Shown here: piece by piece, positions 30,588 through 48,138 of the stretch
Layout: every line of letters begins with the position of its first letter
Numbering within the stretch: the stretch's first letter is position 1
Origin: an uncultured Desulfatitalea sp.
Lineage (GTDB): Bacteria; Desulfobacterota; Desulfobacteria; Desulfobacterales; Desulfosarcinaceae
Assembly (NCBI GenBank): GCA_937868765.1
Contig: CALMNL010000007.1
Location: 186,001-250,000, forward strand
Length of the DNA: 64,000 nucleotides
Reading direction: 5' to 3'
The notes under the pieces: generated by a model
Database searches by the model: none
What the model was told of the DNA's origin: nothing
What the model saw: only the letters and a program-made list of their open reading frames with translations
Position numbers and translations under genes: made by a program

Positions 30588-30613
30588 AAAGTCCTGCCAT
30601 CGCAATAACATCA

Positions 30614-30644
30614 AACGCCCCGGCTTCGGCCGGGGCGTTTTTTT
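30614..30644 (+). terminator. Intrinsic terminator of fhs
   Basis: An 11-bp perfect stem (AACGCCCCGGC at 30614-30624, GCCGGGGCGTT at 30629-30639) closes a stable TTCG tetraloop and runs into seven T residues (30638-30644). It begins 26 bases after the fhs stop codon. Confidence 0.95.
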
Positions 30645-30789
30645 GAGTTATGGCGCCGCGAGACCCGCTCTTCCCTAATGCGCCAAAACTAGGTATCTTA
30701 TCGCCATATTGCGAACATCCTAAGATCTGCCCATGTGATGCTTCTACCAGTATCGGTATTGCGTGCTCGTTTTTGAATGGGAGCGTTAA

Positions 30790-32447: not shown

Positions 32448-34148
32448 CTATCCGAATTTCTTTCTCTTCCGCCACAAGGTCACCCTGGAGATCCCCAGTT
32501 CCTCGGCCGCGGCTCCCAGGTGGCCGTCATGCCGGGCGAGGGCGTCCATGATGGCGCGGTGCTCGCGCTCGTGCCGTTTCGATCTGCCGTCCAGGATGCC
32601 CGCAGCGTCGGCCTCATGGGCAGCGGCCGGTGCCGGTGGTTCCGGATATTGAATCTGCAGGGGCAGACGCACCGGCGTGATTTCGATCTCCCGGCTCATG
32701 GCGAGCGCATGCTCGATGGCGTTCTCGAGCTCGCGAATGTTACCCGGCCAGTGGTATTGCAGCAGCAGTTGCTGGGCGGGCAGGCTGAGCGTTTTCAGGT
32801 TCCGGCGGTCTTTCTTCTGATGCTTGTCGATGAAGTGGCCCGCCAGCCGGAGGATGTCCTGGGATCTTTCCCGCAGCGGCGGAATGACCAGGGGGATCAC
32901 CGCCACCCGGTAGTAGAGATCCATCCGGAATTCCCTCTGTTGGACGCCGGCCGCAAGATTCCGGTTGGTGGCGCAGATGATGCGCACGTCCACCGGATAG
33001 AAACGGTCCGATCCCACGGGGCGCACCGTTCGTTCCTGCAGGACCCGGAGCAGCTTGACCTGCATGCTCATGTCCAGTTCTCCGATTTCGTCCAGAAAGA
33101 GGGTGCCTTCGTGGGCTTCCCGGAAGAGGCCGGCCCGGTCGGAGATCGCCCCGGTGAAGGCGCCTTTCACATGGCCGAACAGTTCCGATTCCAGCAGCGT
33201 TTCCGGCAGGGCGCCGCAGTTCACGGCCACGAACGGCTTGTCCTTGCGATGGCTCTGGCTGTGAATGGCCCGGGCCGCCACCTCCTTGCCCACCCCGGTT
33301 TCGCCGGTGATCAAAACGCTGGAATCGACCTCCGCGCAGCGCACGATGGTGTCGAACACCCCCTGCATCTGTCGGCCGCTGCCGATCATTTCGGTCTGTA
33401 GTTCGTTGCGCCGTTTTTGCCGTTTGAAGTGAAACAGCTCGCGCTCCTTTTCGGCCAGGCGCACGTTGTCCGTGATGTCGGTGAGGGTTTCGGCATGGGC
33501 GAAGAGCCGACCCTGGTGGTCGTAGATCGGGCGGATCTCCCCGATGAATTGGCGGTGGTGTCCCTCCACGCTGAGCTCCAGTTCCACCGGTCCCTTGGCC
33601 GCAAGCGGCAGCAGCGGCCTGGTCCGGCCGCCGTGCAGGGTCGAACTTTCGGTGCTGCCGAACATGTAGCGCCCGTCGATATCGAAGATCGACACGCAGT
33701 CCCGGATGCCGAACAGGATGCTCTGGAGCATCCTTTTTTCCTTCTCCAATTCATCGCGCATGCGCTTCTGTTCGCTGATATCCATCAAAAGGATATTGAC
33801 CGACGTGGGACTCCCCTTTTCGTCCGTGTTAAGCGACAGGTGAAACAGCACCGGGATCTTTTCCCGATTGCGCGCCCCGTAGACGTAGAGTTCGAACTGG
33901 ACCGACTTTCTTCCTTTCTTCAGGAGTTCGATATGCTGCTCGACCATTTGAATTTCTTCCGTGCTGATCAGCGTGCGCACGTCCCGGCCGATGAGGTTGG
34001 TGCGGCTGGCGCCGGCATATTCGAGAAAGGTATCATTGACATCCAGAAGGATGAAATCGATGTCGGTCAGCCAGTAACTGATCTTCAAAACGTCCAGGAT
34101 ACGTTTGAGGTCGGCGTTGCTGTGGGCGGTGATGGCTTTCGGATCCAT
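32448..34148 (-). CDS. PAS-PAS sigma-54-dependent transcriptional activator
   Basis: A 566-residue enhancer-binding protein. Two PAS domains (about 15-130 and 140-250) take the place of a receiver, so it senses a ligand directly rather than through a kinase. The AAA+ domain has Walker A GETGVGKE, the sigma-54 contact loop GAFTGA (near residue 330) and Walker [13 protein letters not shown] Fis-type helix-turn-helix ends the protein ([20 protein letters not shown]). It is transcribed away from the acyl-CoA carboxylase operon, across a 315-base gap with repeated ATGTTTC motifs and a sigma-54 promoter candidate. It is very likely the local activator of that operon, possibly responding to the substrate or an acyl-CoA intermediate. 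Confidence 0.93.
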
Positions 34149-34255: not shown

Positions 34256-34392
34256 TCCCCCATGTCAAATCATCGTTTCGAAGCGAAATTGGCTATTATT
34301 CCAAAACCTGAAAATTGATCGAGACCTTTGGCATCAACTTTGAATTGCATATCACGGACGGGATGGGGTATCGTTTTTCAATTGCTTCTCCA

Positions 34393-34463: not shown

Positions 34464-36080
34464 ATGCATGTGATCGCGTCGCGGATCGACACTCAATCGG
34501 ATGCATATCGGAAGAACTATGACACCATGGCGGCCCGCGTGGCCGATCTTACCACGGAACTGAACCGGTCGATGAACGAGCGCCCGGAGAAGGACCTGAA
34601 CCGGTTGGTCGCGGCGGGCAAATTGCCGACCCCAAAGAAGCTGGAACTGCTGCTGGACCCCAACACGCCCTTTCTCGAAATTGCGCCGCTGGCCGCCAAG
34701 GGCATGTACGACGGCAAGATCCACAAGGCCGGCACCATCATCGGGATCGGCATGGTGTCCGGCCGGGAGGTGCTGATATCGATCAACGACCCCAGCATCA
34801 AGGGCGGTTCCTCCTATCCCATGACCGTGAAGAAAACCCTGCGCAGCCAGACCATCGCCATGGAAAACCGGCTGCCCATGGTCAACCTGCTGGATTCGGC
34901 GGGGGCCTATCTGCCGCTGCAGTCGGAGATCTTCCCGGATGTGGATGACGGCGGACGGGTCTTCTACAACCAGGCGCTGATCAGCAAGATGGGCATTCCC
35001 CAGATCACGGCCGTCATGGGGCTGTGCACCGCCGGCGGCGCCTACGTCCCGGCCATGAGCGACGAGGTGGTCCACGTGAAGGGCCACGGCGCGATCTTCC
35101 TGGGCGGCCCGCCGCTGGTCAAGGCCGCCACCGGCGAGGAGGTCACGGCCGACGAATTGGGCGGCGCCGAGGTGCACTGCGCCGAGTCGGGCGTGTCGGA
35201 CTACTATGCCGAAGACGACGCCCATGCCATCGAGATGGTGCGCATGCTGGTGGCCAACCTGCCGGAAAACGCCAAGGCGCGCCTGAGCACCCGGGAGGCC
35301 CGGCCGCCGCTCTACGACCCCCGGGAGATCTACGGCATCGTGCCCGGGGATATCTCCGAGCCCTACGACATCCGCGAGGTCATCGCCCGGATCGTCGACG
35401 GCAGCGAGTTCATCGAATTCAAGGAGATGTACGGCTCGACCCTGATCTGCGGCTTCGCCTGCATCCACGGCTACCCGGTGGGCATCCTGGGCAACAACGG
35501 CATCTTGTTTTCCGAAAGTGCCCTGAAAGGCACCCAGTTCATCCAGCTGTGCGACAAGCGCCAGATTCCCCTGGTCTTCCTGCAGAACATCACCGGCTTC
35601 ATCATCGGCCGGGACTACGAGCGCGGCGGCATCACCAAGAACGGCCACAAGATGGTCAATGCGGTGGCCACGGCCACCGTCCCGAAGTTCACGGTCATGG
35701 TGGGGGCCTCTTTCGGGGCCGGCAACTACGCCATGTGCGGCAGGGCCTACAGCCCCCGCTTTTTATGGACCTGGCCCAACCACCAGATCGGGGTCATGGG
35801 CGGTGCCCAGGCGGCCGACGTGCTCGTCACCCTGCAGAACGACCAGCGGGCGCGCGCGGGGCAACCGCCGTTGACCGAAGCGGAAGTGGGCTTTATCCGG
35901 GAGCCGGTGATCGCCGCCGCCCTCAAAGAGGGCAATGCCTATTACAGCACCGCCAACCTCTGGGATGACGGCATCATCGATCCGGCCAAGACCCGGGACG
36001 TCCTGGGGCTGGGCATTTCCGCGGCGCTCAACGCGCCCATTCGGAATGACGTGCACGGCTACGGCATTTTCCGCATGTAA
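34464..36080 (+). CDS. Acyl-CoA carboxylase carboxyltransferase (beta) subunit, methylcrotonyl/geranyl-CoA type
   Basis: Transfers the carboxyl group from carboxybiotin to an unsaturated branched acyl-CoA. The 538 residues match the MccB/AtuC group of carboxyltransferases rather than the propionyl-CoA type. Typical blocks are MVNLLDSAGAYLPLQSEIFP, GLCTAGGAYVPAMSDE, FLGGPPLVKAATGE, FLQNITGFIIGRDYE and GASFGAGNYAMCGRAYSPRF. It is the first gene of an operon that also encodes an AtuA-family protein, a crotonase and acyl-CoA dehydrogenases. A substrate such as 3-methylcrotonyl-CoA, geranyl-CoA or a relative is therefore likely. The choice between these needs comparison of the acyl pocket residues. 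Confidence 0.88.
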   Translation: MHVIASRIDTQSDAYRKNYDTMAARVADLTTELNRSMNERPEKDLNRLVAAGKLPTPKKLELLLDPNTPFLEIAPLAAKGMYDGKIHKAGTIIGIGMVSGREVLISINDPSIKGGSSYPMTVKKTLRSQTIAMENRLPMVNLLDSAGAYLPLQSEIFPDVDDGGRVFYNQALISKMGIPQITAVMGLCTAGGAYVPAMSDEVVHVKGHGAIFLGGPPLVKAATGEEVTADELGGAEVHCAESGVSDYYAEDDAHAIEMVRMLVANLPENAKARLSTREARPPLYDPREIYGIVPGDISEPYDIREVIARIVDGSEFIEFKEMYGSTLICGFACIHGYPVGILGNNGILFSESALKGTQFIQLCDKRQIPLVFLQNITGFIIGRDYERGGITKNGHKMVNAVATATVPKFTVMVGASFGAGNYAMCGRAYSPRFLWTWPNHQIGVMGGAQAADVLVTLQNDQRARAGQPPLTEAEVGFIREPVIAAALKEGNAYYSTANLWDDGIIDPAKTRDVLGLGISAALNAPIRNDVHGYGIFRM

Positions 36081-36101
36081 CACCAATCCATGGGGAACCG
36101 C

Positions 36102-37589
36102 ATGTTTAAGAAGATTCTGATTGCCAACCGCGGCGAAATCGCGGTGCGGATCATGCGCACCTGCAAAGAGATGGGCATTGCCACCGTAGCGGTCTACTCC
36201 GATGCCGACCAACAGGCCCTGCATGCCCTCGAGGCCGACGAGGCGGTGGCCATCGGACCCTCCGAGCCGTCCCAAAGCTACCTGGACATCGAACGCATCG
36301 TTGCGGCAGTCAAACAGACCGGCGCCGAGGCCGTTCATCCCGGTTACGGGTTTCTGGCCGAAAACGCCGACTTCGCGGCGCGCTGCGAGCGGGAGGGCAT
36401 TGTCTTCATCGGTCCGCCAGCCCGGGTGATCCGCAACCTGGGCGACAAAATCATCGCGCGCCAGATCATGCAGAAGGGCGGGGTGCCCATCATACCGGGC
36501 ATGCTCGAGACGGCGCAAAATCCTGCCGCCTGGCTCGTCCATGCCGAGCAGATCGGCTTTCCGCTGCTGATCAAGGCCGCGGCCGGCGGCGGCGGGAAAG
36601 GGATGCGCATCGTCCACCATCCCGGAGAGCTGGCCGAGGCCTGTCAGGCGGCCGCCCGGGAGGCCGCCGCCGCTTTCGGCGACGGCACCGTCTACTTGGA
36701 GAAATTCCTGCCCAAGTCCCGGCACGTGGAGATCCAGATCCTGGCCGACGGCCAGGGCCACACCATCCACCTTTTCGAACGGGAGTGCTCCATTCAGCGC
36801 CGGCATCAGAAGATCATCGAAGAGACCCCCAGCCCGGCCCTGACCCCGGCCCTGCGCGCCGCCATGGGCCGGGCGGCGGTGGCGGCCGCCCGGGCGGCCG
36901 GCTATGTGAATGCGGGCACGGTGGAGTTCATCCTGGACCCGGAGGGCCGCTTCTACTTCCTGGAAGTCAACACCCGCCTGCAGGTGGAACACCCCATCAC
37001 GGAGATGATCACCGGGCTGGACCTGGTGCGCCACCAGATCGAGATCGCCGCCGGCCGGCCGCTGACCCTGACCCAGGAGGAGGTGCACGGCCGGGGGCAT
37101 GCCATCGAATGCCGGATCTACGCCGAAGACCCTGCCCAGAACTTCATGCCCTCGCCCGGTCGCATTGCCTTTCTCCGGGAACCCACCGGGCCGGGGGTCC
37201 GCAACGACTGCGGGGTCTATGCCGGGTTCGAGGTCCCGGTGGAGTACGATCCCATTCTCTCCAAGCTGGTGGTCCATGCCGAAACGCGGGAGCTGGCCAC
37301 CCGGCGCATGATCCGGGCCCTGGCATCGTATGCGGTCCTGGGGGTGCAGACCCCCATCGACTTTCTGCTGGATGTCCTCGCCTCGGCGCCGTTCCAGGCC
37401 GGCGAGACCTATACCGATTTCATCGCCACCCATTTCGCCGACTGGTCCCCGGATCGCAAGGTGCTGGAACTGGCCGCCATCGCCTGCGTGGCGGACGCCA
37501 TGGCGCCCAAGGGGCGGCCGGCCGGGCGCGCCTCCGAGGCAGCGGCCCATCCCGGCCCCTGGCGCACGTTGAACCATTGGCGGCTGTAG
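36102..37589 (+). CDS. Acyl-CoA carboxylase biotin carboxylase subunit
   Basis: The ATP-grasp biotin carboxylase that charges biotin with bicarbonate. I place the start at 36102 (MFKKILIANRGEIAVRIM), with GGGGA five bases upstream, rather than 36090. All domains are present: the N-terminal ANRGEIAVRI, HPGYGFLAENADFA, the glycine-rich AAAGGGGKGMR, the catalytic EVNTRLQVEHPITEMITG, and a C-terminal GVQTPIDFL segment. It ends at 495 residues. In methylcrotonyl- and geranyl-CoA carboxylases this subunit continues into a BT and a biotin-carrier domain; here the carrier is a separate gene 40 bases downstream. The alpha subunit is thus split. Confidence 0.93.
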   Translation: MFKKILIANRGEIAVRIMRTCKEMGIATVAVYSDADQQALHALEADEAVAIGPSEPSQSYLDIERIVAAVKQTGAEAVHPGYGFLAENADFAARCEREGIVFIGPPARVIRNLGDKIIARQIMQKGGVPIIPGMLETAQNPAAWLVHAEQIGFPLLIKAAAGGGGKGMRIVHHPGELAEACQAAAREAAAAFGDGTVYLEKFLPKSRHVEIQILADGQGHTIHLFERECSIQRRHQKIIEETPSPALTPALRAAMGRAAVAAARAAGYVNAGTVEFILDPEGRFYFLEVNTRLQVEHPITEMITGLDLVRHQIEIAAGRPLTLTQEEVHGRGHAIECRIYAEDPAQNFMPSPGRIAFLREPTGPGVRNDCGVYAGFEVPVEYDPILSKLVVHAETRELATRRMIRALASYAVLGVQTPIDFLLDVLASAPFQAGETYTDFIATHFADWSPDRKVLELAAIACVADAMAPKGRPAGRASEAAAHPGPWRTLNHWRL

Positions 37590-37629
37590 CCCGAGAGCGA
37601 TCATCACCGGCAAGAGGAGCATCGGCTGT

Positions 37630-38157
37630 ATGGACTTCAGATTGAAACACAAGGAAGAAACCATTGCCCTGGCGGTGGAAGCGTCGGGGGAGGGCGGTTT
37701 TGCCGCCGCTATCGGAGACAGGCGCGTGGCGGTGTCGTTCGCGCGCATTTCCGAGCATCAGATGCGCCTGACCGTGGACGGGCGTCAGGTGTTGGCCTTC
37801 GTAGCCGAAACCCCCGACGGCAAAGCGGTGATGGTCGACGGGCGCACCTTTTTGCTGGCGGACGAGCGTGCATCGGGAGCCCGTCCCCGGTCAGGCGCCG
37901 CCAACGGCCCCAAGACGGTCACGCCCCCCATGCCGGCGGTGGTGACCCAGATCCTGGTAGCCCAGGGCCAGGCGGTGGAAAAGGGACAGGGGCTGCTGGT
38001 GGTGTCGGCCATGAAGATGGACACCCTTCTTACCGCGCCTTTTGCCGGCGTAGTCACGCGGGTCAACGTGGCCGAAGGAGAAAAGGTGGCCCCCAAGCAG
38101 GTGCTGGTGGATATCGAACCCGCGGCGGCGGAGCCGGCCGCCGGACGGGCATCCTAA
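37630..38157 (+). CDS. Biotin carboxyl carrier subunit of the acyl-CoA carboxylase
   Basis: A 175-residue protein. The C-terminal 75 residues form a biotinyl domain: PPMPAVVTQILVAQGQAVEKG, then VSAMKMD with the biotin-accepting Lys, then APFAGVVTRVNVAEGEKV. The attachment motif has Ser in place of the usual Glu of EAMKM. The N-terminal 95 residues look beta-rich and probably correspond to the BT domain that joins biotin carboxylase to carrier in single-chain alpha subunits. With the previous two genes it completes a three-polypeptide carboxylase. AAGAGGAG lies upstream of the ATG. Confidence 0.88.
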   Translation: MDFRLKHKEETIALAVEASGEGGFAAAIGDRRVAVSFARISEHQMRLTVDGRQVLAFVAETPDGKAVMVDGRTFLLADERASGARPRSGAANGPKTVTPPMPAVVTQILVAQGQAVEKGQGLLVVSAMKMDTLLTAPFAGVVTRVNVAEGEKVAPKQVLVDIEPAAAEPAAGRAS

Positions 38158-38176
38158 CGATCAGGGAGGGAGCTTC

Positions 38177-38953
38177 ATGGCGGAAAAGGATTTGATCTAT
38201 AAGGTAGACGGGCATGTGGCCACCGTGACCATCAACCGGGCGGCCGCACGCAACGCCATCACGACGGAGGCAGTGGCGCTGTTCCACCAGGCCCTGGACG
38301 AGGCCCAGGTCGATCCCCAGGTGCGGGTGGTCTGCGTCACCGGCGCTGGCGACAAAGCCTTCTGTTCAGGCGCGGACCTGGGCGGCGGCATGCAGGCCGA
38401 TGCCGGCCGTCGCAGCCACTTCGACAGCTATGCCCGGCTCATCAGCCGCCTTACGGAGTTTCCCAAGCCGACCGTGGCGCGGGTCAACGGGCACTGCCTG
38501 GCCGGCGGCACCGGCTTCATGCTCGCCTGCGACATCGTGATCGCCAAGGCCTCGGCCCTATTCGGCACACCCGAGGTCAACGTCGGGTTGTTTCCCATGA
38601 TGATCGGCGCCCTGATCTTCCGCAACGTTCCCCGCAAGAAGGCCATGGAGATGATTCTGCTGGGCCAGCGGCTCACCGCCGCCCAGGCCCTGGAGATGGG
38701 CCTGGTGACCCGGGTGGCGGCCGATGCCGATTTCGATGCCGAGGTCGCGGCGGTGCTCACCGAGCTCGCGGCCAAGAGCCCCATCGGCCTCCGGCTGGGC
38801 AAGCAGGCCTTTGCCGCCGTCGAGCAGATGCGCCTGGCCGAGGCCGTGCGCTATCTGGCCGGCCAACTGCTCGAGGTGGCTGATACCCGGGATGCCCGCG
38901 AAGGCATCACCGCCTTCCTGGAAAAACGCGCCCCGCACTTCAAAGGAGAATAG
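38177..38953 (+). CDS. Enoyl-CoA hydratase/isomerase family protein
   Basis: A 258-residue crotonase. The oxyanion-hole segments FCSGADLGGG and NGHCLAGGTGFMLACDIVIA are clear. One catalytic Glu is present in LFGTPEVNVGLFP, matching rat crotonase Glu164. The position of Glu144 is occupied by a non-acidic residue, as I recall also for methylglutaconyl-CoA-type hydratases. Following the carboxylase genes, it is placed to hydrate the carboxylated, glutaconyl-type intermediate, the role of LiuC or AtuE. No HMG-CoA-lyase-like gene for the next step lies in the window. Confidence 0.88.
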   Translation: MAEKDLIYKVDGHVATVTINRAAARNAITTEAVALFHQALDEAQVDPQVRVVCVTGAGDKAFCSGADLGGGMQADAGRRSHFDSYARLISRLTEFPKPTVARVNGHCLAGGTGFMLACDIVIAKASALFGTPEVNVGLFPMMIGALIFRNVPRKKAMEMILLGQRLTAAQALEMGLVTRVAADADFDAEVAAVLTELAAKSPIGLRLGKQAFAAVEQMRLAEAVRYLAGQLLEVADTRDAREGITAFLEKRAPHFKGE

Positions 38954-38958
38954 ACCGC

Positions 38959-39582
38959 ATGCTCTACCGCTTCCACGGCCGCACCCCGTCCATCGGCAAA
39001 GAGACCTACGTCAGCGAACTGGCCCAGGTGATCGGCGAGGTGGTCATCGGCGATAACTGCTACATCGGCCACGGCGCCATTCTGCGCGGCGATTACGGCC
39101 GCATCGAAATCGGCGACGGCACTGCCGTGGAGGAGGGCGTCATCATCCATGCCCCGCCCGACCACCTCAACCGCATCGGCCGGCGCGTCACCCTGGGCCA
39201 CGGGGCGATCCTGCACGGCAGCAGCGTCGGTGACGGCGCGGTCATCGGCATGGGGGCCGTGGTGAGCATCCTCAGCGACATCGGCGAGGGCGCCATCGTG
39301 GCCGAAGGCGCGCTGGTGAAATGGGGTCAGAAGATCCCGGCCCGCATGGTGGCCGTGGGCAATCCCGCCGAAGTGAAACGCGCGGTGAGCGCCAAAGACG
39401 AGGAGATCTGGTCTTTCGGCAAGCAGCTTTACGTGGATCTGGCCAGACGCTACCTGGCATCCGACCTGGAACCGCTGACCATCGACCAATGCAGGGCCGC
39501 CGGCCCGTCGGACGGTTCCATCGGCCCATTGCCCCGGGTCGGCGCCGCAACCCATGGGAGGCAAGCACATGCACGACCCTGA
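38959..39582 (+). CDS. Gamma-carbonic-anhydrase-like hexapeptide protein
   Basis: A 207-residue left-handed beta-helix protein with repeated I/V-G-D hexapeptides (VIGEVVIGDNCYIGHGAILRG). The metal-binding His set of the gamma-carbonic anhydrase/PaaY group is visible in IIHAPPD and TLGHGAILHG. Members include carbonic anhydrases and the PaaY thioesterase that protects phenylacetyl-CoA catabolism. Here it could supply bicarbonate to the neighbouring carboxylase or release stalled CoA esters. It starts five bases after the hydratase and overlaps the AtuA-family gene by 14 bases. Confidence 0.85.
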   Translation: MLYRFHGRTPSIGKETYVSELAQVIGEVVIGDNCYIGHGAILRGDYGRIEIGDGTAVEEGVIIHAPPDHLNRIGRRVTLGHGAILHGSSVGDGAVIGMGAVVSILSDIGEGAIVAEGALVKWGQKIPARMVAVGNPAEVKRAVSAKDEEIWSFGKQLYVDLARRYLASDLEPLTIDQCRAAGPSDGSIGPLPRVGAATHGRQAHARP

Positions 39583-41359
39583 AAAACTGATCATCGCCAA
39601 TTGCAGCGGCTTTTTCGGCGACCGGCTCTCGGCGGCCAAGGAGATGGTGCTGGGCGGTCCCATCGACGTGCTCACCGGCGATTACCTGGCCGAACTGACC
39701 ATGGCGCTCCTGTTCCAGAAGAAGCTCAAGTCGCCCGAGGGCGGCTTTGTGCCCACCTTCCTCAAGCAGATGGAAGCGGTCATGGGCGAATGCCTGCAGA
39801 AGGGCATCCGGGTGGTGGCCAACGCCGGCGGCCTGAACCCCGCGGCCATGGCCCGGGCCCTCAAGGCCGCGGCCCAGACCCTGGGCCTGTCGCCCCGGAT
39901 CGCCTATATCGAAGGCGACGATCTGATGCCGCGCCTGGCCGATCTGCAGCAGGCCGGCGAGAGCTTCACCCATCTGGACAAGGGCCTCCGCCTGGCCGAC
40001 AGCGGGGCCGTGCCCCTTACGGCCAATGCTTACCTGGGGGCCTGGGGCATTGCCGCGGCCCTGGAACAGGGGGCCGACATCGTGGTGTGCGGCCGGGTGG
40101 CCGACGCCGCCCTGGTGGCCGGCCCCTGCGCCTGGCGTTTCGGCTGGCAACGCAGCGACTGGGACCCGTTGGCCGGGGCCTACGCCGCCGGGCACATCAT
40201 CGAGTGCGGCGCCCAGGCCACGGGCGGCAACTATTCGTTCATCCACGAGGTGCCCTCCTACCGCAACGTGGGGTTCCCCATCGCCGAGATGCACCCCGAC
40301 GGCAGCTTCGTCATCACCAAGCATCCCGGCACCGGCGGGCTGGTGTCGGTGGGCACGGTCACGGCCCAACTGCTCTATGAAATCGCCGCGCCGGCCTATC
40401 TGACCCCCGACGTGACGGTGCGCTTCGACACCCTGGCCCTGACCCAGGAGGGGCCCGACCGGGTGCGCGGCACGGGCACCCGGGGCGAACCGCCGCCCGA
40501 GACCACCAAGGTGTGCATCAACACCCTGGGCGGATACAAGAACGCCATGACCGTGATCCTCACCGGCCTGGACATCGAACGCAAGGCCGAGATCGTCACC
40601 GCAACCCTCTTCGACAGCCTGGGCGGCCGGGAGCGGTTCCAAACCGTGGACGTGCAGCTCGTACGCTCGGAAAAGACGGATCCCGGCACCAACGACGAGG
40701 CCTTCGCCTATCTGCGCGTCACGGTGCTGGACCCGGACGCCAACAAGGTGGGCCGGCGCTTTTCGGCCGCGGTGGTGGAGATGGCCCTGGCCAACATTCC
40801 CGGCTTCACGCTCACCTCACCGCCCGGCGACGGTGGGCCGGCGGTGGTGCACTGGCCCGCGCTGGTGGCAAACCGCCACATCCATCAGACGGTCTGCCTC
40901 GACGACCGGCCGGCGGTGGTGGTCGAGGCCGCCTGGGAGAGCGAACCCTTCACCCTGTCGCCCGCCATGCCGGAGATCCCCGCGGTTCCGGGGGGGCCGG
41001 CCGTGCGGGCGCCGCTGGGCCGGGCCTTCGCCACCCGCTCGGGCGACAAGGGCGGCAATGCCAACCTGGGCATCTGGGGCCAAACACCGGAAGCCTATGC
41101 CTTCCTGCGCAGCTTTCTGACCACCGAACGCCTCAAGGCGCTGCTGCCCGACTGCGCGCCGTTCGCCATCGAGCGCTATGAACTGCCCAATCTGCTGGCC
41201 GTCAACTTCTACATCCGCGGCCTTTTGGGCGACGGTGTGGCCGCCTCGGTGCGCAGCGACCCCCAGGCCAAGACCCTGGGGGAATACCTGCGGGCCAAAG
41301 TCGTGGAGATGCCGGCCGCGATCCTGGTGACCGATCCGGATGGAAAGGAGATTCGATGA
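39569..41359 (+). CDS. AtuA family protein of acyclic terpene/branched-acid utilization clusters
   Basis: A 596-residue protein (formerly DUF1446). The start at 39569 has GGGAGG seven bases upstream. N-terminal hallmark: NCSGFFGDR followed by GGPIDVLTGDYLAELTM. Further blocks are VVANAGGLNPAAM, VVCGRVADAALVAGP and ECGAQATGGNYS. The C-terminal AtuA-like domain begins near RAFATRSGDKGGNANLGIWG. AtuA is essential for citronellol/geraniol growth in Pseudomonas, but its reaction is not established as far as I know. Its presence beside a geranyl/methylcrotonyl-type carboxylase is the main reason to compare this operon with the Atu pathway. Confidence 0.9.
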   Translation: MHDPEKLIIANCSGFFGDRLSAAKEMVLGGPIDVLTGDYLAELTMALLFQKKLKSPEGGFVPTFLKQMEAVMGECLQKGIRVVANAGGLNPAAMARALKAAAQTLGLSPRIAYIEGDDLMPRLADLQQAGESFTHLDKGLRLADSGAVPLTANAYLGAWGIAAALEQGADIVVCGRVADAALVAGPCAWRFGWQRSDWDPLAGAYAAGHIIECGAQATGGNYSFIHEVPSYRNVGFPIAEMHPDGSFVITKHPGTGGLVSVGTVTAQLLYEIAAPAYLTPDVTVRFDTLALTQEGPDRVRGTGTRGEPPPETTKVCINTLGGYKNAMTVILTGLDIERKAEIVTATLFDSLGGRERFQTVDVQLVRSEKTDPGTNDEAFAYLRVTVLDPDANKVGRRFSAAVVEMALANIPGFTLTSPPGDGGPAVVHWPALVANRHIHQTVCLDDRPAVVVEAAWESEPFTLSPAMPEIPAVPGGPAVRAPLGRAFATRSGDKGGNANLGIWGQTPEAYAFLRSFLTTERLKALLPDCAPFAIERYELPNLLAVNFYIRGLLGDGVAASVRSDPQAKTLGEYLRAKVVEMPAAILVTDPDGKEIR

Positions 41360-42165
41360 AAGCATTGTGCGCCGATCTGGCCTGGGAGCAGGATCGCCTG
41401 GACGCCCTGGTGAGCGGCATCGCCCCCGGAGCGTGGGAAACCCTGGCCCCGTGCGGCAACTGGACGGTCAAGGACGAGATCTGCCATCTGGCCTACTTCG
41501 ACTACACGGCGCGCCTCGCGGCCACCGATCCCGCGGCGTTCCAGCGCCACCTGGTCGAGGATCTGGGCCGGATCAAGGACATGGACGAGGCCACCGCCAT
41601 CACCCTGGCCAAGGGACGGGCCATGGCCACCGGCGAGCTGCTGGCCTGGTGGCGGCAAGAGCGGCGGCAACTGGTCGAGGCCCTGGAGCGCCTTGCCCCC
41701 AAGGACCGCCTGCCGTGGTACGGGCCGCCCATGAGCGCGCGTTCGTTCGCCAGCGCCCGGCTGATGGAGACCTGGGCCCACGGCCAGGATATCTACGACG
41801 TGCTCGGCGTCGCGCGGCCCGCCAGCCCGGGGCTGCGCCACATCGCCCACCTGGGGGTGACCACCTTCGGCTGGAGTTTCGCCAACCGGGGCCTGCCGGT
41901 TCCCGAGGCGGCCGTGCACGTGGAACTGACCGCGCCCGCGGGCGAGATCTGGAGCTGGGGCGACGAGACCGCGGCCCAGCGCATCAGCGGGCCGGCCGTG
42001 GATTTCTGCCTGGTGGCCACCCAGCGCCGGCACGTGGACGACACCGCCCTGGTGGTGATCGGCGAGGTGGCCCGAAAGTGGATGGAGCTGGCCCAGTGCT
42101 TTGCCGGGCCGCCCACCCTGGGGCCGGCCGCCGGAACCCGGGGCATTCTCAAGCAGCGCGCCTAA
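41356..42165 (+). CDS. DinB/maleylpyruvate-isomerase-like protein (TIGR03084 type)
   Basis: A 269-residue four-helix-bundle protein. Typical features are WTVKDEICHLAYFD near residue 40 and WYGPPMSARSFASARLMETW-AHGQD near 130. The His residues in these two stretches fit the metal site of the DinB/MDMPI superfamily. I associate this sequence type with TIGR03084, which is seen mostly in actinobacterial acyl-CoA clusters; its function is unknown. It is coupled to the AtuA-family gene by an ATGA overlap, so the two products probably act together. Confidence 0.8.
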   Translation: MKALCADLAWEQDRLDALVSGIAPGAWETLAPCGNWTVKDEICHLAYFDYTARLAATDPAAFQRHLVEDLGRIKDMDEATAITLAKGRAMATGELLAWWRQERRQLVEALERLAPKDRLPWYGPPMSARSFASARLMETWAHGQDIYDVLGVARPASPGLRHIAHLGVTTFGWSFANRGLPVPEAAVHVELTAPAGEIWSWGDETAAQRISGPAVDFCLVATQRRHVDDTALVVIGEVARKWMELAQCFAGPPTLGPAAGTRGILKQRA

Positions 42166-42184
42166 ACAAGGTCTGGAGGTTTGG

Positions 42185-44215
42185 ATGTATCCCTATCTGT
42201 TCAGTCCCATCCGCATCAACCGGCTGGAAATCAAAAACCGCATCGCCTATCCGGCCCTGGGGCTGGCCTATTCCCATGACCGTCGGCTCAACGACCGCTA
42301 CTTCCACTACTTCCGCGAAATCGCCCGGGGCGGCGCCGGCATCGTGACCGTGGGCCCCGTGGGGGTCGATGTGCTCGGCGCCGGCTTTCTGGTGCTGACC
42401 CTGGACAACGACGGCGCCATCGCCGATTTCAGGCGCCTGGCCGATGCCATCCGGCGCGAAGGCGCCAGCCCCTGGATTCAGCTCTTCCACGCCGGCGGCT
42501 ATTCCCATCCCATCCTCATCGACAACCAGACCCCCATGGCGCCCTCGGCGGTCTTCTCCAACTACTCCCGCACCACGCCCCGGGAGATGACCCTCGACGA
42601 TATCGCCAAGGTCCAGGAGGCCTTCGCGGCCGCGGCGCAGCGGGCCCGGCAGGCCGGCTTCGACGGCGTGGAGATCATCGCCAGCGGCGGCTACCTGCTC
42701 ACCCAGTTCTGGTCGCCGCTCAAGAACCAGCGCACGGACGATTACGGCGGCAGTTTCGAAAACCGCGGGCGCTTTGCCCGGGAGACGATCCAAAAGGTGC
42801 GCGCCGCTGTGGGGGAAGAATTTCCCATCGGCATCCGCATGGCCGGCAACGATTTCGTGCCGGGCAGCAACAGCGACGCGCAGACCCCGGCCATCGCCCG
42901 GGTCTATGAAGCCGCCGGGGTGGACGTGATCAACGTCACCGGTGGCTGGCACGAGACCCGGGTGCCCCAGTTGCCCATGGAACTGCCCCGGGCGGCCTAT
43001 GGCTATCTGGCCTTGAACATCAAAAAGGCCGTGTCCGTGCCGGTGATGGCTTCCAACCGCATCGCCAGCCCCGACGCCGCCGACAAACTGCTGCGCGACG
43101 GCTACGCCGACATGGTCAACCTGGGACGGGTGCTCATCGCCGATCCCTTCTGGCCGCAAAAGGCCTTCGCCGGCCGCGCCGCCGAGATCCGGCCCTGCAC
43201 GGCCTGCGGCCAGGGGTGCGCCGACCAGGTGTTCCGCGGCGCGGCCGTTTTCTGTGCCGGCAACCCCCGCGCCGGCTTCGAGGCCGAGCGTACCGTTGTA
43301 AAAACCGATGCGCCCAAACGCATCCTGGTGGCCGGCGCCGGCCCGGCCGGCCTGGAGGCCGCCGTCACCGCGGCCCAAATGGGCCACCGCGTGGAGATCT
43401 GCGAGCAGTCGGGCGACATCGGCGGGCAACTGTGGCTGGCCGGCGCGCCGCCGCATAAGCAGGAGTATCTGGAGTACATCCGCTACTACCGGGCCATGCT
43501 CGACCGGCTGGAGATCCCGGTGCACCTGAACACGCCGGTGGACGCGGCCCTGATCCAATCCCGCAAACCGGAGCATGTCATCGCCGCCACCGGGGCCGAG
43601 GCGCTGCGGCCGCCGATTCCCGGCGTGGACGCCGAGGGCGTGCTCACCGCCTGGGAGGTGTTGCGCGCCAATCCGCCCCTGGGCCGTTCGGTGGCCATCA
43701 TCGGCGGCGGCGCCGTGGGTCTGGAAACCGCCCTGTTCGTGGCGGCCAAGGGCACCATCAACGCCGAAACGCTCGCCTTTCTCTTCACCTATAGGGCCGC
43801 CTCGGAAGAGCGGCTGCGGGAATTGCTGTTCAACGGCAGTTCCAAAGTCACGGTGTTCGAGATGCTGCCCCGGGCCGGCGGCGATGTGGGGCGCTCCACC
43901 CGCTGGGTGCTCTTCGAGCGCCTCAAGCAGTACGGGGTGACCATCGAAACCAGTGCCAAGGTGACCGAGCTGACCGCCCGCGCGGTGAGCTGGGAACAGG
44001 ACGGCAGCGTCCAAAGCCGGCCGTTCGACCAGGTCATCGTGGCCTCGGGCGCGCGTCCGGTCAACGCCCTGGCCGCGCGCCTCGCGGCCCTGGGCATCCC
44101 CTTTACGGCGGTGGGCGACTGCACCGGGCCGCGCAAGATCCAGGATGCCATCCACGGCGGTTTCCTGGCCGCCCTCAACCTCGACCAGCATCAGAAACAG
44201 GGAGAAGCCGCATGA
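42185..44215 (+). CDS. 2,4-dienoyl-CoA-reductase-like flavin/iron-sulfur oxidoreductase
   Basis: A 676-residue enzyme of the FadH/trimethylamine-dehydrogenase group. The start at 42185 follows GGAGG at five bases. An FMN barrel (residues 1-340, with NQRTDDYGGSFENR) leads to a 4Fe-4S motif, CTACGQGC plus a later Cys in FCAGNP. An NAD(P)/FAD domain follows (ILVAGAGPAGLEAAV and VAIIGGGAVGLETAL). FadH relatives reduce conjugated double bonds of dienoyl-CoAs, and others act on aromatic-derived or bile-acid CoA esters. In this operon it may reduce a conjugated intermediate or re-oxidise a cofactor. ATGA overlap couples it to the next gene. Confidence 0.88.
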   Translation: MYPYLFSPIRINRLEIKNRIAYPALGLAYSHDRRLNDRYFHYFREIARGGAGIVTVGPVGVDVLGAGFLVLTLDNDGAIADFRRLADAIRREGASPWIQLFHAGGYSHPILIDNQTPMAPSAVFSNYSRTTPREMTLDDIAKVQEAFAAAAQRARQAGFDGVEIIASGGYLLTQFWSPLKNQRTDDYGGSFENRGRFARETIQKVRAAVGEEFPIGIRMAGNDFVPGSNSDAQTPAIARVYEAAGVDVINVTGGWHETRVPQLPMELPRAAYGYLALNIKKAVSVPVMASNRIASPDAADKLLRDGYADMVNLGRVLIADPFWPQKAFAGRAAEIRPCTACGQGCADQVFRGAAVFCAGNPRAGFEAERTVVKTDAPKRILVAGAGPAGLEAAVTAAQMGHRVEICEQSGDIGGQLWLAGAPPHKQEYLEYIRYYRAMLDRLEIPVHLNTPVDAALIQSRKPEHVIAATGAEALRPPIPGVDAEGVLTAWEVLRANPPLGRSVAIIGGGAVGLETALFVAAKGTINAETLAFLFTYRAASEERLRELLFNGSSKVTVFEMLPRAGGDVGRSTRWVLFERLKQYGVTIETSAKVTELTARAVSWEQDGSVQSRPFDQVIVASGARPVNALAARLAALGIPFTAVGDCTGPRKIQDAIHGGFLAALNLDQHQKQGEAA

Positions 44216-45363
44216 GCGCAAATTTGTACTTCACCAAAGAGCACGAGCAGGTGCGCAAGGCCCTGCGGGACTTCGTGACCAAGCGGATCAATCCCTTCGT
44301 GGACGAATGGGAGGAAAAGGGCGCCGCGCCCCTGCACGACCTGTTCAAAGAGATGGGCGAACTGGGGTTCCTGGGCATCCGCTACGACGAGCGCTACGGC
44401 GGCCTGGGCCTGGACTACTGGTATGAGACCGTGATGCTCGAAGAGATCGCCCGGGCGCGCTGCGGCGGGGTGCCCATGGCCATCGCCGTCCAGACCAACA
44501 TGGCCACCCCGGCCATCGCCGAGTTCGGCAGCGACTATCTCAAGGACAAGTATCTGCGCGCGGCCATCCGCGGCGAGATGGTGGGGGCCATCGCCGTCAC
44601 CGAACCGGACGCCGGCTCGGACGTGGCGGCCCTGCGGACCTTCGCCCGCAAAGAGGGCGACGTCTACGTGCTCAACGGCTCGAAGACGTATATCACCAAC
44701 GGCACCCAGGCCGATTTTCTGACGCTGCTGGCCCGCACCAGCGAGGCGCCGGGCTATCATTCGTTCAGCCTCTTCGTGGTGCCCACCGCCCTGCCCGGAT
44801 TCAAGATCAGCAGGAAACTCGACAAGCTGGGCATGCGCAGCAGCGACACGGCCGAGTTGTACTTCGACGACCTGCGCATTCCGGCCGAAAACCGCATCGG
44901 CCAGGAGGGCGAAGGCTTCATCTACCAGATGCAACAGTTCCAGCACGAACGCTTCTCGGCGCTGCCCATCTGCTACATCGGTGCCGAAGAGATGATCCGC
45001 GAGACCGTGGCCTACATCAAGAAGCGCATCGTTTTCGGCAAGCCGTTGATCAAAAAGCAGGTGCTGCGCCACCGGCTGGTGGACTGGCTCAGCGAGATCG
45101 AGTGCCTGCGCCAGCTCACCTATCACATCGTGCGCCTCAAGATGGCCGGCCAGGATGCCACCAAGGAGATCTCCATGGGCAAACTGATCGGCGGGCGCCT
45201 GCTCAACCAAGTGGCCGACGGCTGCCTGCAGATGTACGGCGGCCTGGGGTTCATGAACGAGATGCACGTCTCCCGGTTCTTCCGGGACGCCCGGCTGATC
45301 TCCATCGGCGCGGGCGCCAGCGAAGTGATGAGCGATATCATCGCCAAACTCGAAGGGTTCTGA
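44212..45363 (+). CDS. Acyl-CoA dehydrogenase
   Basis: A 383-residue FAD enzyme that introduces an alpha,beta double bond into an acyl-CoA. Typical blocks are ITEPDAGSD-like AVTEPDAGSDVAAL, NGSKTYITNGTQAD and YGGLGFMNEMHVSRFFRDA. The position that holds the catalytic Glu in medium-chain enzymes is not Glu here (ISIGAGASEV). A Glu in QFQHERF lies where isovaleryl- and long-chain dehydrogenases carry their base. That suits a branched substrate, but is inference. It is translationally coupled to the flavoenzyme upstream. Confidence 0.92.
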   Translation: MSANLYFTKEHEQVRKALRDFVTKRINPFVDEWEEKGAAPLHDLFKEMGELGFLGIRYDERYGGLGLDYWYETVMLEEIARARCGGVPMAIAVQTNMATPAIAEFGSDYLKDKYLRAAIRGEMVGAIAVTEPDAGSDVAALRTFARKEGDVYVLNGSKTYITNGTQADFLTLLARTSEAPGYHSFSLFVVPTALPGFKISRKLDKLGMRSSDTAELYFDDLRIPAENRIGQEGEGFIYQMQQFQHERFSALPICYIGAEEMIRETVAYIKKRIVFGKPLIKKQVLRHRLVDWLSEIECLRQLTYHIVRLKMAGQDATKEISMGKLIGGRLLNQVADGCLQMYGGLGFMNEMHVSRFFRDARLISIGAGASEVMSDIIAKLEGF

Positions 45364-45455
45364 CAGCGGAACCCGTCGGGAGTTCCATAGTCGAAGTTCC
45401 ATAACGTACGGAGGGTCCAGTGTAACCATCAACCATTCAAAAAGGAGCTGGGGTC

Positions 45456-46964
45456 ATGAAGATCAACATCGGTTATCTGCTCTACAAGCGGGCCATGCTG
45501 AGTCCCAAACTGGAGGCCCTCGTGGTCGGAGAGGTGCGGCGTTCTTATCCGGAATTGAACGCAGGCGCCAACCGGGTCGCCAACGCCATGCGCAGGATGG
45601 GAGTCCAGCGGGGGGATCGGGTGGCGGTGCTGGCCCTCAACGATCCCGAGTACCTGGAACTCTTCTTCGGCCTGGCCAAGATCGGCGTGGTGATGGTGCC
45701 GCTCAACCACCGCCTGGCGCCGCCCGAGGTGGCCTACATCGCCAACGATTGCGGGACCCAGACCTTCATCTTCGGCAAGGAGTTCGTCCCGGTGGTCGAG
45801 GCCATCCGCGATCAGATCCCGGCCAAGCGCTTCATTGGCATCATGGACAATCCCCCGGCCTGGGCCCGGCCCTACCCAGCGGTTTTCGGTGACGCCCCGA
45901 GCGACGAGCCCGAGTATATCGGCGGGGACGACGACACCCTGACCATCCTCTATACCTCGGGAACGACCGGCCGGCCCAAAGGGGCCGAACTGACCCATAA
46001 CGGCTACTACCACACCTCGGTGGACCTCAAGGCCACCCTCACCGATGTCGGCACGCGCATGCTGATGCCGCTGCCCCTGTTTCACATCGGCGCCCTGGCG
46101 CCGGTGCCCATGTGCGCCCACTTCGGCTCGACCATGATCTTCCAGCGGACGTTCGAGCCGGCCGAATTTCTCAAGCTGATCCAGACCGAGCACATCTCCT
46201 GGTTCGGCTCCGTGCCCCAGGTGCTGATGTTCCTGCGCTCGGTGCCGCAGTTCGAGACCTTCGACTGGTCCACCATCAAGCTGGCCCTGGTCTATGCGGC
46301 ACCCGTGCCGGTGCCCCTGATCAAGGCCTTTGCCGAAAAGGGCATGGGGGTGCGCCAGCTCTACGGTCTGACCGAGTGCACCGGTCCGGCCTCGGTCATC
46401 GACGCCGAGTGGGCGATCCAGAAAGCCGGCTCCTGCGGCCCGCCCTTCTATCACACCGATATCCGCGTGGTGGACCTCGAGGGCAAGGATTGCGCCCCGG
46501 ACGTGCCCGGCGAGGTGCTGATGCGCACCACCCACCTCATGAAGGGCTACTACAACAATCCCACGGCCACGGCCCAGACCATCATCGACGGCTGGCTGCA
46601 CACGGGCGACATCGCCAAGATGGATGCCGACGGCTTCCTGTATATCCTGGACCGCAAGAAGGACATGATCATCTCCGGCGGCGAGAACATCTATCCGGCC
46701 GAAGTGGAAGAGTGCCTGCACGCCCACCCGGCCATCGCCGACGTCGGGGTGATCGGCATTCCGGACGATACCTGGGGCGAAGCCGTCAAGGCCATCGTGG
46801 TGCTCAAAAAGGGCGAGAGTCTCACCCAAGAGGCCCTCATCGAGTGGTGCCGGGACAAGCTGGCGCGTTTCAAGACGCCCAAGCAGGTGGTCTTCATCGA
46901 CCAGATCCCGCGCACGCCCACCGGCAAGATTCTCAAACGGGTGCTGCGGGAAAAATTCAGTTAG
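45456..46964 (+). CDS. AMP-forming acyl-CoA synthetase (acid-CoA ligase)
   Basis: A 502-residue member of the ANL superfamily that activates a carboxylic acid with ATP and CoA. The AMP-binding P-loop is YTSGTTGRPKGAELTHNG. QLYGLTECT, DGWLHTGDIAKMDADGF and the C-terminal catalytic Lys in RTPTGKILKRVLRE are present. It is separated from the upstream dehydrogenase by 92 bases, with AAAAAGGAG before the ATG. It is the probable first enzyme of the pathway. The medium-chain/fadD3-like size does not reveal the substrate. Confidence 0.93.
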   Translation: MKINIGYLLYKRAMLSPKLEALVVGEVRRSYPELNAGANRVANAMRRMGVQRGDRVAVLALNDPEYLELFFGLAKIGVVMVPLNHRLAPPEVAYIANDCGTQTFIFGKEFVPVVEAIRDQIPAKRFIGIMDNPPAWARPYPAVFGDAPSDEPEYIGGDDDTLTILYTSGTTGRPKGAELTHNGYYHTSVDLKATLTDVGTRMLMPLPLFHIGALAPVPMCAHFGSTMIFQRTFEPAEFLKLIQTEHISWFGSVPQVLMFLRSVPQFETFDWSTIKLALVYAAPVPVPLIKAFAEKGMGVRQLYGLTECTGPASVIDAEWAIQKAGSCGPPFYHTDIRVVDLEGKDCAPDVPGEVLMRTTHLMKGYYNNPTATAQTIIDGWLHTGDIAKMDADGFLYILDRKKDMIISGGENIYPAEVEECLHAHPAIADVGVIGIPDDTWGEAVKAIVVLKKGESLTQEALIEWCRDKLARFKTPKQVVFIDQIPRTPTGKILKRVLREKFS

Positions 46965-46980
46965 GCGGAAAAGAGAGGCC

Positions 46981-48138
46981 ATGTCGACACGAACCAGCAA
47001 CACCGGCGTTCAGGAATATTTCAGCCAGGAGCAGGCGCGTCTGCGCCTGGCGGTAAGGGAGCTGATCAAGAAGGAAGTGATCCCCCATATCGATGAATGG
47101 GAAGAGGCCGGCGGTTTTCCGCGCTCTTTGTATGACCAGTTCGGAGAACTGGGCTTTTTGGGGGTCGGCTACCCGGAAGAGGTGGGCGGCAGCGGCGGTG
47201 ATCTTTTCGACCAGATCGCCATGGCCGAAGAAGTCATGCGGGCCGGCTCCGGCGGTTTCGCCGCCGGCATCGGCTCGTTGAACATCGCCCTGCCGCCCAT
47301 CGTCCGCAAAGGGACCGGCGAGCAGATTGAGCGGTTCGTCAAGCCGGTTCTGGCGGGAAAACGCATCGCGGCCCTGGGCATTACCGAACCGGGCGGCGGG
47401 TCGGATGTGGCCAATCTGCAGACCACCGCCGTGCGGGACGGCGACGGATATATCGTCAACGGCAGCAAGACCTTCATCACCAGCGGCGTGCGCGCCGACC
47501 AATTGACCTGCGCGGTGCGCACCGGAGGGCCCGGCGCCCATGGCATCAGCTTTCTGGTCATCGAGCGCGACACGCCCGGTTACGCGGTGGGCAAGAGCCT
47601 GAAAAAGACCGGGTGGTGGGCCTCGGACACGGCCGAGATCTTTTTCGACAACTGCCGGGTGCCGGCCGTTAACCTCATCGGTGCAGAGAACCAGGGTTTC
47701 TATACCATCATGGAGAATTTCCAGGCGGAGCGGTTGCAGTTGAGCGTCATGGCCAACATGACCGCTCAACTCGCCCTGGAGGAGGCGCAGCGCTATACCC
47801 GGGAGCGGCAGGCCTTCGGCAAGCCGCTCGCGGGGTTTCAGGTGACCCGCCACAAGCTGGCGGACATGGCCACCCTGGTGGAGGTCAGCCGGGAGTTCAC
47901 CTACCGCGTGGCCGCGAGGATCAACGCCGGCATCGACCAGGTCAAGGAGGTCTCCATGGCCAAGAACTTCGCCTGCAGTGTCGGCGACCGGGTCACCTAC
48001 GACGCGGTGCAGCTGTTCGGCGGATATGGCTACATGCGCGGCTGTCTGGTGGAACGGCTCTTCCGGGACAACCGGATTCTTTCCATCGGCGGCGGCACCA
48101 CCGAAATAATGAAAGAGATCATTTCCAAATTGATGTAG
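46981..48138 (+). CDS. Acyl-CoA dehydrogenase (second)
   Basis: A 385-residue FAD enzyme, a paralogue of the one 2.8 kb upstream. Shared blocks are ITEPGGGSDVANL, NGSKTFITSGVRAD, FGKPLAGFQ and YGGYGYMRG. Like its paralogue it lacks Glu at the medium-chain catalytic position (SIGGGTTEIM) and has a candidate base in FQAERLQL, as in isovaleryl-CoA dehydrogenase. The ATG follows AAAAGAGAG by five to six bases and is 16 bases after the ligase gene. It closes the operon. Two dehydrogenases could act at two oxidation steps or form a heteromer. Confidence 0.92.
   Translation: MSTRTSNTGVQEYFSQEQARLRLAVRELIKKEVIPHIDEWEEAGGFPRSLYDQFGELGFLGVGYPEEVGGSGGDLFDQIAMAEEVMRAGSGGFAAGIGSLNIALPPIVRKGTGEQIERFVKPVLAGKRIAALGITEPGGGSDVANLQTTAVRDGDGYIVNGSKTFITSGVRADQLTCAVRTGGPGAHGISFLVIERDTPGYAVGKSLKKTGWWASDTAEIFFDNCRVPAVNLIGAENQGFYTIMENFQAERLQLSVMANMTAQLALEEAQRYTRERQAFGKPLAGFQVTRHKLADMATLVEVSREFTYRVAARINAGIDQVKEVSMAKNFACSVGDRVTYDAVQLFGGYGYMRGCLVERLFRDNRILSIGGGTTEIMKEIISKLM

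Follow-up and report, generated by a model that had tools for sequence, protein, structure and literature searches.

How might an anaerobe degrade acids with a methyl branch at carbon 3, a branch that stops beta-oxidation and whose usual aerobic bypass uses oxygen? The question is raised by a locus of an uncultured Desulfatitalea sp. (assembly GCA_937868765.1, contig CALMNL010000007.1), in which eleven genes on the + strand occupy positions 34464–48138 of the window, meaning here the whole stretch of 64,000 nucleotides that was analysed. The locus is best read as a variant of the Atu/Liu kind of acyl-CoA carboxylation operon, with a third carboxylase lineage and with AtuA as the probable cleavage enzyme. 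We moderately favour the view that it serves the oxygen-independent breakdown of acyl-CoAs that carry a 3-methyl branch and are larger than isovaleryl-CoA; their likeliest sources are isoprenoid acids of the terpenoid or phytanyl type. An anaerobic lifestyle, assumed by an earlier reading made from the DNA letters alone (the sequence-only reading), is reasonable through kinship: among the best 80 loci of 575 relatives, the closest named relatives of this 5.36-Mb genome are Desulfatitalea, and Desulfatitalea tepidiphila is a sulfate reducer (PMC4972781).

Operon layout and recurrence among relatives

Gene families were assigned to the open reading frames of the window by Pfam and NCBIfam scans (ACAD2 with Pfam models alone, the ligase with NCBIfam models alone). 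The operon begins with the beta subunit of a carboxyltransferase (CT; 34464–36080; PF01039, 458 bits), followed by a stand-alone biotin carboxylase of 499 amino acids (BC; 36090–37589) and a separate biotin carboxyl carrier protein with the biotinylation motif SAMKM (BCCP; 37630–38157; PF00364). A crotonase-family hydratase candidate for the AtuE/LiuC role (38177–38953; PF00378) and a PaaY/gamma-carbonic-anhydrase-like hexapeptide protein with its His motifs kept (gamma-CA; 38959–39582; NCBIfam) precede the AtuA-family protein, the proposed C–C cleavage enzyme (39554–41359; PF07287 with 542.8 bits, PF23544 with 59.8 bits). Next come a TIGR03084 putative metal-binding protein of the DinB fold (41356–42165; 333.6 bits, cut-off 247.95), an OYE/FadH-like flavoprotein of the 2,4-dienoyl-CoA reductase type with iron–sulfur cysteines (42179–44215; best PDB match 1ps9) and acyl-CoA dehydrogenase 1 (ACAD1; 44212–45363), whose Glu246 is of the isovaleryl-CoA dehydrogenase (IVD) type by Pfam and PDB alignment. 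An AMP-forming acyl-CoA ligase (45456–46964; NF004837, 506 bits, cut-off 476) and acyl-CoA dehydrogenase 2 (ACAD2; 46981–48138), with its Glu placed by alignment as in ACAD1, close the series. Reading frames and family scans thus bear out the eleven same-strand genes and the Atu/Liu-type logic named by the sequence-only reading. What that reading gave as the order of the genes (ligase, dehydrogenase, carboxylase, hydratase) is instead the proposed order of reactions, as the CT comes first. Successive genes are spaced by 9, 40, 19, 5, −29, −4, 13, −4, 92 and 16 bp, which is consistent with the single transcription unit proposed earlier, the 92-bp gap being a possible exception.

In the proposed pathway, the ligase would form the CoA ester and ACAD1, ACAD2 or both would put in a double bond between carbons 2 and 3. 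The three-subunit carboxylase would then add CO2 onto the 3-methyl group that otherwise blocks beta-oxidation, the crotonase would hydrate the carboxylated acyl-CoA, and AtuA would split the 3-hydroxy-3-alkylglutaryl-CoA, so that the shortened chain could return to beta-oxidation. The FadH-like enzyme would reduce 2,4-dienoyl-CoA intermediates arising from unsaturated chains, and the gamma-CA-like protein may provide bicarbonate or be a thioesterase. Every reaction and substrate in this scheme is predicted from sequence.

The idea that the operon, or its gene order, is restricted to the window genome was rejected, as it recurs in relatives and across many loci. Of 60 relatives, 22 have AtuA (PF07287, any score over the cut-off). 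When named genomes were scanned with an AtuA alignment and the best 80 of 575 relatives were taken, window-type CTs turned up in Desulfobacterota, SAR324, Spirochaetota, one Dehalococcoidia metagenome-assembled genome (MAG) and a few others. Elsewhere in that set, namely in SAR86, other Myxococcota, an Amycolatopsis and others, AtuA comes with other carboxylases or with none in view. Within the order, 34 of 194 genomes carry a CT of the window's clade (about 70% identity or more; two as fragments), and AtuA at 400 bits or more is found in 27 of these 34 carriers vs 12 of the 160 other genomes (Fisher 1.6e-17, with genomes counted as independent and no correction for phylogeny).

Neighbours were counted as hits on the CT strand within 16 kb at 56 clade loci, some of them cut by contig ends; 52 loci are distinct, as L061, L062, L064 and L191 repeat contigs already taken. 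Besides the 56 CTs, these loci hold BC (55), BCCP (54), crotonase (48), AtuA (45), ACAD1 (38, two at just 25–32% identity), DinB (24), OYE (18), gamma-CA (8, also 8 of the 52 distinct loci) and a beta-keto acid cleavage enzyme (BKACE, 7), along with ACAD2 (25) and ligase (20), both of which counts take in distant paralogues. The conserved core is therefore CT-BC-BCCP-crotonase-AtuA, mostly with ACAD1, and the gamma-CA, ligase and OYE genes are accessories. Its recurrence across dozens of genomes shows the operon to be more than a chance assembly. One genome (G029, locus L036) has two AtuA genes (72% and 65%) about 5 kb apart.

In gene content, the operon resembles atuABCDEFGH of Pseudomonas, which combines AtuA, a ligase, an acyl-CoA dehydrogenase, a biotin carboxylase complex and a crotonase according to PMC4847356 and PMC4097962; unlike that system, it adds the FadH-like, gamma-CA-like and TIGR03084 proteins. 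The anaerobic linalool pathway of Thauera linaloolentis (PMC4847356) differs in that its host, a denitrifier of the betaproteobacteria, has AtuC/AtuF and, apart from these, a liu set. Among the open-access literature matches listed, no paper reports an operon of the Atu type from a sulfate reducer.

A separate carboxyltransferase lineage with a pocket glycine

The PDB matches of the CT are headed by beta subunits of methylcrotonyl-CoA carboxylase (MCC; best match 3u9r), with those of geranyl-CoA carboxylase (GCC) lower. According to PMC4673880, Phe191 of MCC corresponds to Gly162 of GCC, and MCC has a three-residue insertion just before this position. With columns matched from the alignments, the window CT has Gly163 at this site, the acyl-pocket glycine also found in the Pseudomonas enzyme AtuC/AtuF. 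Its segment FPDVDDGGR has the loop length of MCC and keeps the three residues that GCC lacks, the GCC-beta chain 5ikl being shorter. Glycine occupies the pocket in all 50 distinct CTs of the clade that span this position, three identical CTs having been dropped and fragments that stop short of it left uncounted; the 5 MCC-type PDB chains among the matches listed have Phe.

Eleven CTs of the order outside the clade were fetched for comparison (all 6 at 52–56% identity, both at 42–43% and 3 of 55 at 35–40%). Four carry Phe (L200, L208–L210), all of them adjoining genes similar to 3-hydroxy-3-methylglutaryl (HMG)-CoA lyase, five carry Ala (L201–L205, 52–54% identity) and two, both GCC-type, carry Ser. 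The five Ala-type CTs form a clade of their own. Among AtuA-linked CTs outside the order, the pocket residue is Ser, Gly or Thr, apart from one Ala (L131) and, in the alignment used, one Asp and one gap.

In a tree of 73 CTs, from which the fragments L061 and L080 were left out, the window clade (21 rows, support 100/99) stands apart from the GCC clade with 5ikl and next to the MCC references, four of which join it at 100/99. A tree of 42 rows recovers the window clade as monophyletic (13 rows, 100/100) and leaves its place beside MCC unresolved; a sister relationship to MCC was accordingly rejected as a firm claim. Identity as a propionyl- or acetyl-CoA carboxylase was also rejected, as the mmdA-type CTs of the same genome (L001–L003) fall outside in both trees, and in neither does the window CT group firmly with such enzymes. 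PDB entry 9tps, named as a propionyl-CoA carboxylase beta subunit, carries the pocket motif of MCC and clusters with that enzyme.

The partner subunits separate the operon further from Pseudomonas Atu, since its BC and BCCP lie on separate genes; they are fused in known MCC and GCC, as stated in PMC3199775. BC is a stand-alone protein of about 500 amino acids throughout the clade, in contrast to the fused BC-BCCP of 639–681 amino acids at the majority of AtuA-linked loci outside it. A stand-alone BC was nevertheless rejected as a hallmark of the clade, because L200–L205 share it. The MK of the BCCP biotinylation site is kept in 40 of 40 aligned sequences.

The CT forms a clade of its own and appears to be neither an MCC nor a GCC by descent; judged by its pocket and gene company, it probably works like a GCC. 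The earlier assignment to a methylcrotonyl/geranyl-type carboxylase thus needs correcting as to descent: the enzyme combines the pocket glycine of GCC with the loop length of MCC and a BCCP on a gene of its own. A natural exchange supports GCC-like working. Two Desulfobacteraceae MAGs (L066 and L067) carry GCC-type CTs that group with 5ikl (98/94), alongside partners of the window type (AtuA 70–71%, crotonase 58–61% and DinB 56% identical), and their AtuA proteins fall within the window's seven-row AtuA sub-clade (99/97). Two further genomes, G202 and G087, are arranged in the same way (L206, with a CT nearly identical to that of L066, and L207, with no AtuA seen).

These features bear on whether the operon is simply a Liu operon of leucine or isovalerate breakdown, its carboxylase acting on 3-methylcrotonyl-CoA and an HMG-CoA lyase encoded elsewhere completing the pathway. 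We regard this as improbable, although part of the evidence suits it. The loop length, the best PDB match and the IVD-type Glu of both dehydrogenases are as in liu/MCC systems; of the genome's 7 CTs, none but the window CT falls among the MCC/GCC types in the tree (the place of L007, on a very long branch, is unsure), which would fit a Liu role as well; and a gene for HMG-CoA lyase is present on contig C6. Since the window genome has no second such CT at E 1e-80, the operon could serve isovalerate too, and GCC is described in PMC4673880 as also taking methylcrotonyl-CoA. Unlike liu/MCC systems, however, the clade has Gly for Phe in 50 of 50 CTs, has AtuA, and has no HMG-CoA lyase near the CT in any of the 56 loci. 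Fourteen of the 34 clade carriers have, besides the clade CT, a different one that matches at E 1e-80 or better, so the clade CT need not serve isovalerate in those genomes. Neither AtuA nor the FadH-like enzyme is known to have a role in Liu pathways.

Desulfococcus multivorans, of the same order, offers a direct comparison. Its isovalerate cluster, which likewise follows a carboxylation route, is placed at 3.20 Mbp in PMC5109826, which reports that only cells adapted to 3-methylbutanoate formed Mcc and HmgL. The CT found at 3.21 Mb in G039 (L209) apparently belongs to this published cluster. It differs from the window CT in its Phe pocket and 38% identity, and it is flanked by an HMG-CoA lyase-like protein (131 bits), an acyl-CoA dehydrogenase and an acetoacetate-CoA ligase; the AtuA search of the order's genomes gave no match in G039. 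Because D. multivorans apparently uses this other, Phe-type cluster with an HMG-CoA lyase-like gene, isovalerate is a less likely substrate of the window operon, and because the clade has Gly and the order's Phe-type CTs adjoin HMG-CoA lyase-like genes, a larger 3-methyl-branched acyl-CoA is likelier. The predicted breakdown of a 3-methyl-branched acid therefore stands for larger branched acids and is weakened for isovalerate, with a broad enzyme as a possibility.

The predicted carbon–carbon cleavage step

Pfam and NCBIfam scans found no HMG-CoA lyase in the operon, in agreement with the sequence-only reading, and such a lyase was located elsewhere in the genome, as one of the two options of that reading would have it. 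The window genome has 7 HMG-CoA lyase-like Pfam matches, five of which were scanned further (L054 and L056 were left out). L057, on contig C6, scores as an HMG-CoA lyase (275 bits against a cut-off of 246) and has neighbours with no apparent link to the pathway, and L059 is a weaker relative (129 bits); L055, L058 and L060 resemble homocitrate synthase, 4-hydroxy-2-oxovalerate aldolase and pyruvate-carboxylase-B types. L059 (contig C4, 1.20 Mb) adjoins a crotonase and an acyl-CoA dehydrogenase, with no carboxyltransferase in that 3.9-kb stretch.

Two observations in relatives point to AtuA for the cleavage instead: the lack of an HMG-CoA lyase in some carriers and the exchange of AtuA with BKACE. 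With the HMG-CoA lyase hidden Markov model (HMM), 15 of the 34 CT carriers score over the cut-off, 2 just under it, 3 at an intermediate level, 5 weakly and 9 at background. Eight of these nine have AtuA (G046, G072, G076, G098, G146, G173, G194 and G209), with best E values of 1.8e-11 to 2.8e-17. Because the model finds matches in all 14 control genomes but exceeds its cut-off in only 3, E values between 1e-11 and 1e-17 were treated as background. In four of the eight, the HMM run scored 11 of 13–16 candidates; a repeat search with the window genome's own lyase scored all of them and reached 41 bits or less, with zero matches in G098, against 659 and 314 bits in the controls G000 and G037. 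PF00682 matches in the same four genomes look only long-frame synthase-like, shorter aldolase-like or partial. The eight carriers belong to four families, and G098 and G194 are single-contig genomes.

In four genomes without AtuA (G032, G140, G154 and G163), BKACE (PF05853) lies exactly between crotonase and ACAD1, the slot of AtuA. This exchange is explained most simply if the two proteins meet one and the same requirement of the cleavage step. Both occur together in two distinct loci (L076 and L078), and the window genome has one BKACE gene outside the operon. In the BKACE loci L179, L184, L190 and L193, a related gene, TetR-family by Pfam in L193, the single one scanned, directly follows ACAD1, in contrast to the sigma-54 activator of Desulfatitalea described below.

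AtuA proteins share their architecture, the PF07287 domain and a ferredoxin-like domain both being present in 44 of 44 aligned sequences (L038 was dropped for a frame break). BKACE is not among the Pfam matches of AtuA, and no relative of AtuA in the PDB is recognisable by sequence or profile. AtuA is listed as a lyase in PMC4847356, and it is the best candidate for the predicted C–C cleavage.

The main rival, which we consider rather unlikely, is that AtuA acts on a beta-keto acid instead of a hydroxyglutaryl-CoA: an enzyme of the HMG-CoA lyase type would split the 3-hydroxy-3-alkylglutaryl-CoA, releasing acetyl-CoA, and the beta-keto acid left over would be turned into an acyl-CoA by AtuA, or by BKACE in its place. 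The very name of BKACE suits this proposal, as does the presence of an HMG-CoA lyase in the window genome and, over the cut-off, in two of the four BKACE genomes (G032 and G140), with G163 intermediate (1.7e-54) and G154 weak (1.6e-29). The eight AtuA carriers with background matches, two of them single-contig genomes, argue against it, and with the window genome's lyase as the query, G154 too yields no more than a background match (27.5 bits).

Several points nonetheless weigh against cleavage of larger branched chains by AtuA, in addition to the single CT of the window genome and to the Ala-type locus L202, which also has an HMG-CoA lyase-like neighbour. With an HMG-CoA lyase of its own, the window genome does not strictly need AtuA for cleavage. 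The eight lyase-less carriers are not independent, because five belong to one family (f18). Seven of the 34 carriers lack AtuA at 400 bits or more, and BKACE fills the slot in only four; in G136, crotonase adjoins ACAD1 with neither protein between them. One of the two usual catalytic glutamates of crotonases is kept (E133, 52 of 52) and the other is absent in 52 of 52, which counts against a simple hydratase label. The chemistry of AtuA is assigned by association only, and one review (PMC4097962) credits LiuE instead of AtuA with the cleavage in Pseudomonas. Our preference for AtuA follows from the lyase-less relatives and the exchange with BKACE.

Partner enzymes, substrate range and regulation

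The two dehydrogenases and the OYE-type protein would fit branched and unsaturated substrates. The helix Glu of ACAD1 (FQHER) is kept in 38 of 38 sequences and aligns with that of isovaleryl-CoA dehydrogenase 4kto, and Gly stands where 4u83 carries its C-terminal Glu. ACAD2 has the same pattern (ER in 19 of 19, without the 4u83-type C-terminal Glu). An IVD-type helix Glu suits branched substrates. In the OYE-type protein, the GYL and GWHE motifs are present in 16 of 16 sequences aligned with 2,4-dienoyl-CoA reductase 1ps9, and a C-x2-C-x3-C-x11-C pattern as in 1ps9 in 15 of 15 shown (16 sequences); the Tyr and His of these motifs are catalytic in FadH-type 2,4-dienoyl-CoA reductases. The TIGR03084 protein mostly keeps its His-containing motifs; it has no PDB match, and the open-access literature gave no paper on it.

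The OYE-type protein also bears on a further alternative, which we think quite improbable: the carboxylase may act on another unsaturated acyl-CoA, for example a side chain of a steroid or terpenoid ring, and not in a general route for 3-methyl fatty acids. The protein falls below the cut-off of all 25 NCBIfam models listed of 59 matched and is distantly like BaiCD. Ligases and dehydrogenases differ between loci, so substrates may vary. Against this, the most constant part of the operon is its core from CT to AtuA, which corresponds to the Atu-type steps.

Upstream of the CT, a divergent gene (32448–34148, − strand) encodes a putative PAS/AAA sigma-54-type activator (NtrC-like, with a GAFTGA motif). 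A divergent activator next to the CT is found in several relatives as well (69–88% identity), unlike Pseudomonas Atu, for which the repressor AtuR is named. A strict GG-N10-GC scan upstream of the CT found no conserved site; a strict sigma-54 promoter was rejected, the sole 9-of-12 site being unconserved and 15 of 500 shuffles reaching 9. A 17-bp block, TTGGCATCAACTTTGAA (34328–34344, + strand), is a candidate sigma-54-like promoter in which the GG is kept and the −12 GC is not matched; 14 of its 17 columns are invariant across 6 aligned intergenic regions of the same genus. Beyond the regulator, positions 28824–32445 hold genes that are presumably formate-tetrahydrofolate-ligase-like and radical-SAM-like.

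More tentatively, the operon may be one instance of a widespread anaerobic module for isoprenoid acids, with a third gamma-carboxylase lineage that gained a GCC-like pocket separately and with AtuA as a new type of C–C cleavage enzyme that has no kinship to HMG-CoA lyase and can be exchanged for BKACE. The comparison provides a comparative-genomic handle on AtuA, whose role is described differently in PMC4847356 (as the lyase) and in PMC4097962 (with LiuE as the lyase). Within the order, the pocket residue may tell carboxylases of isovalerate from those of larger substrates. Through this operon, the respiration of isoprenoid carbon in anoxic sediments becomes a testable question in a genus that has been cultured.

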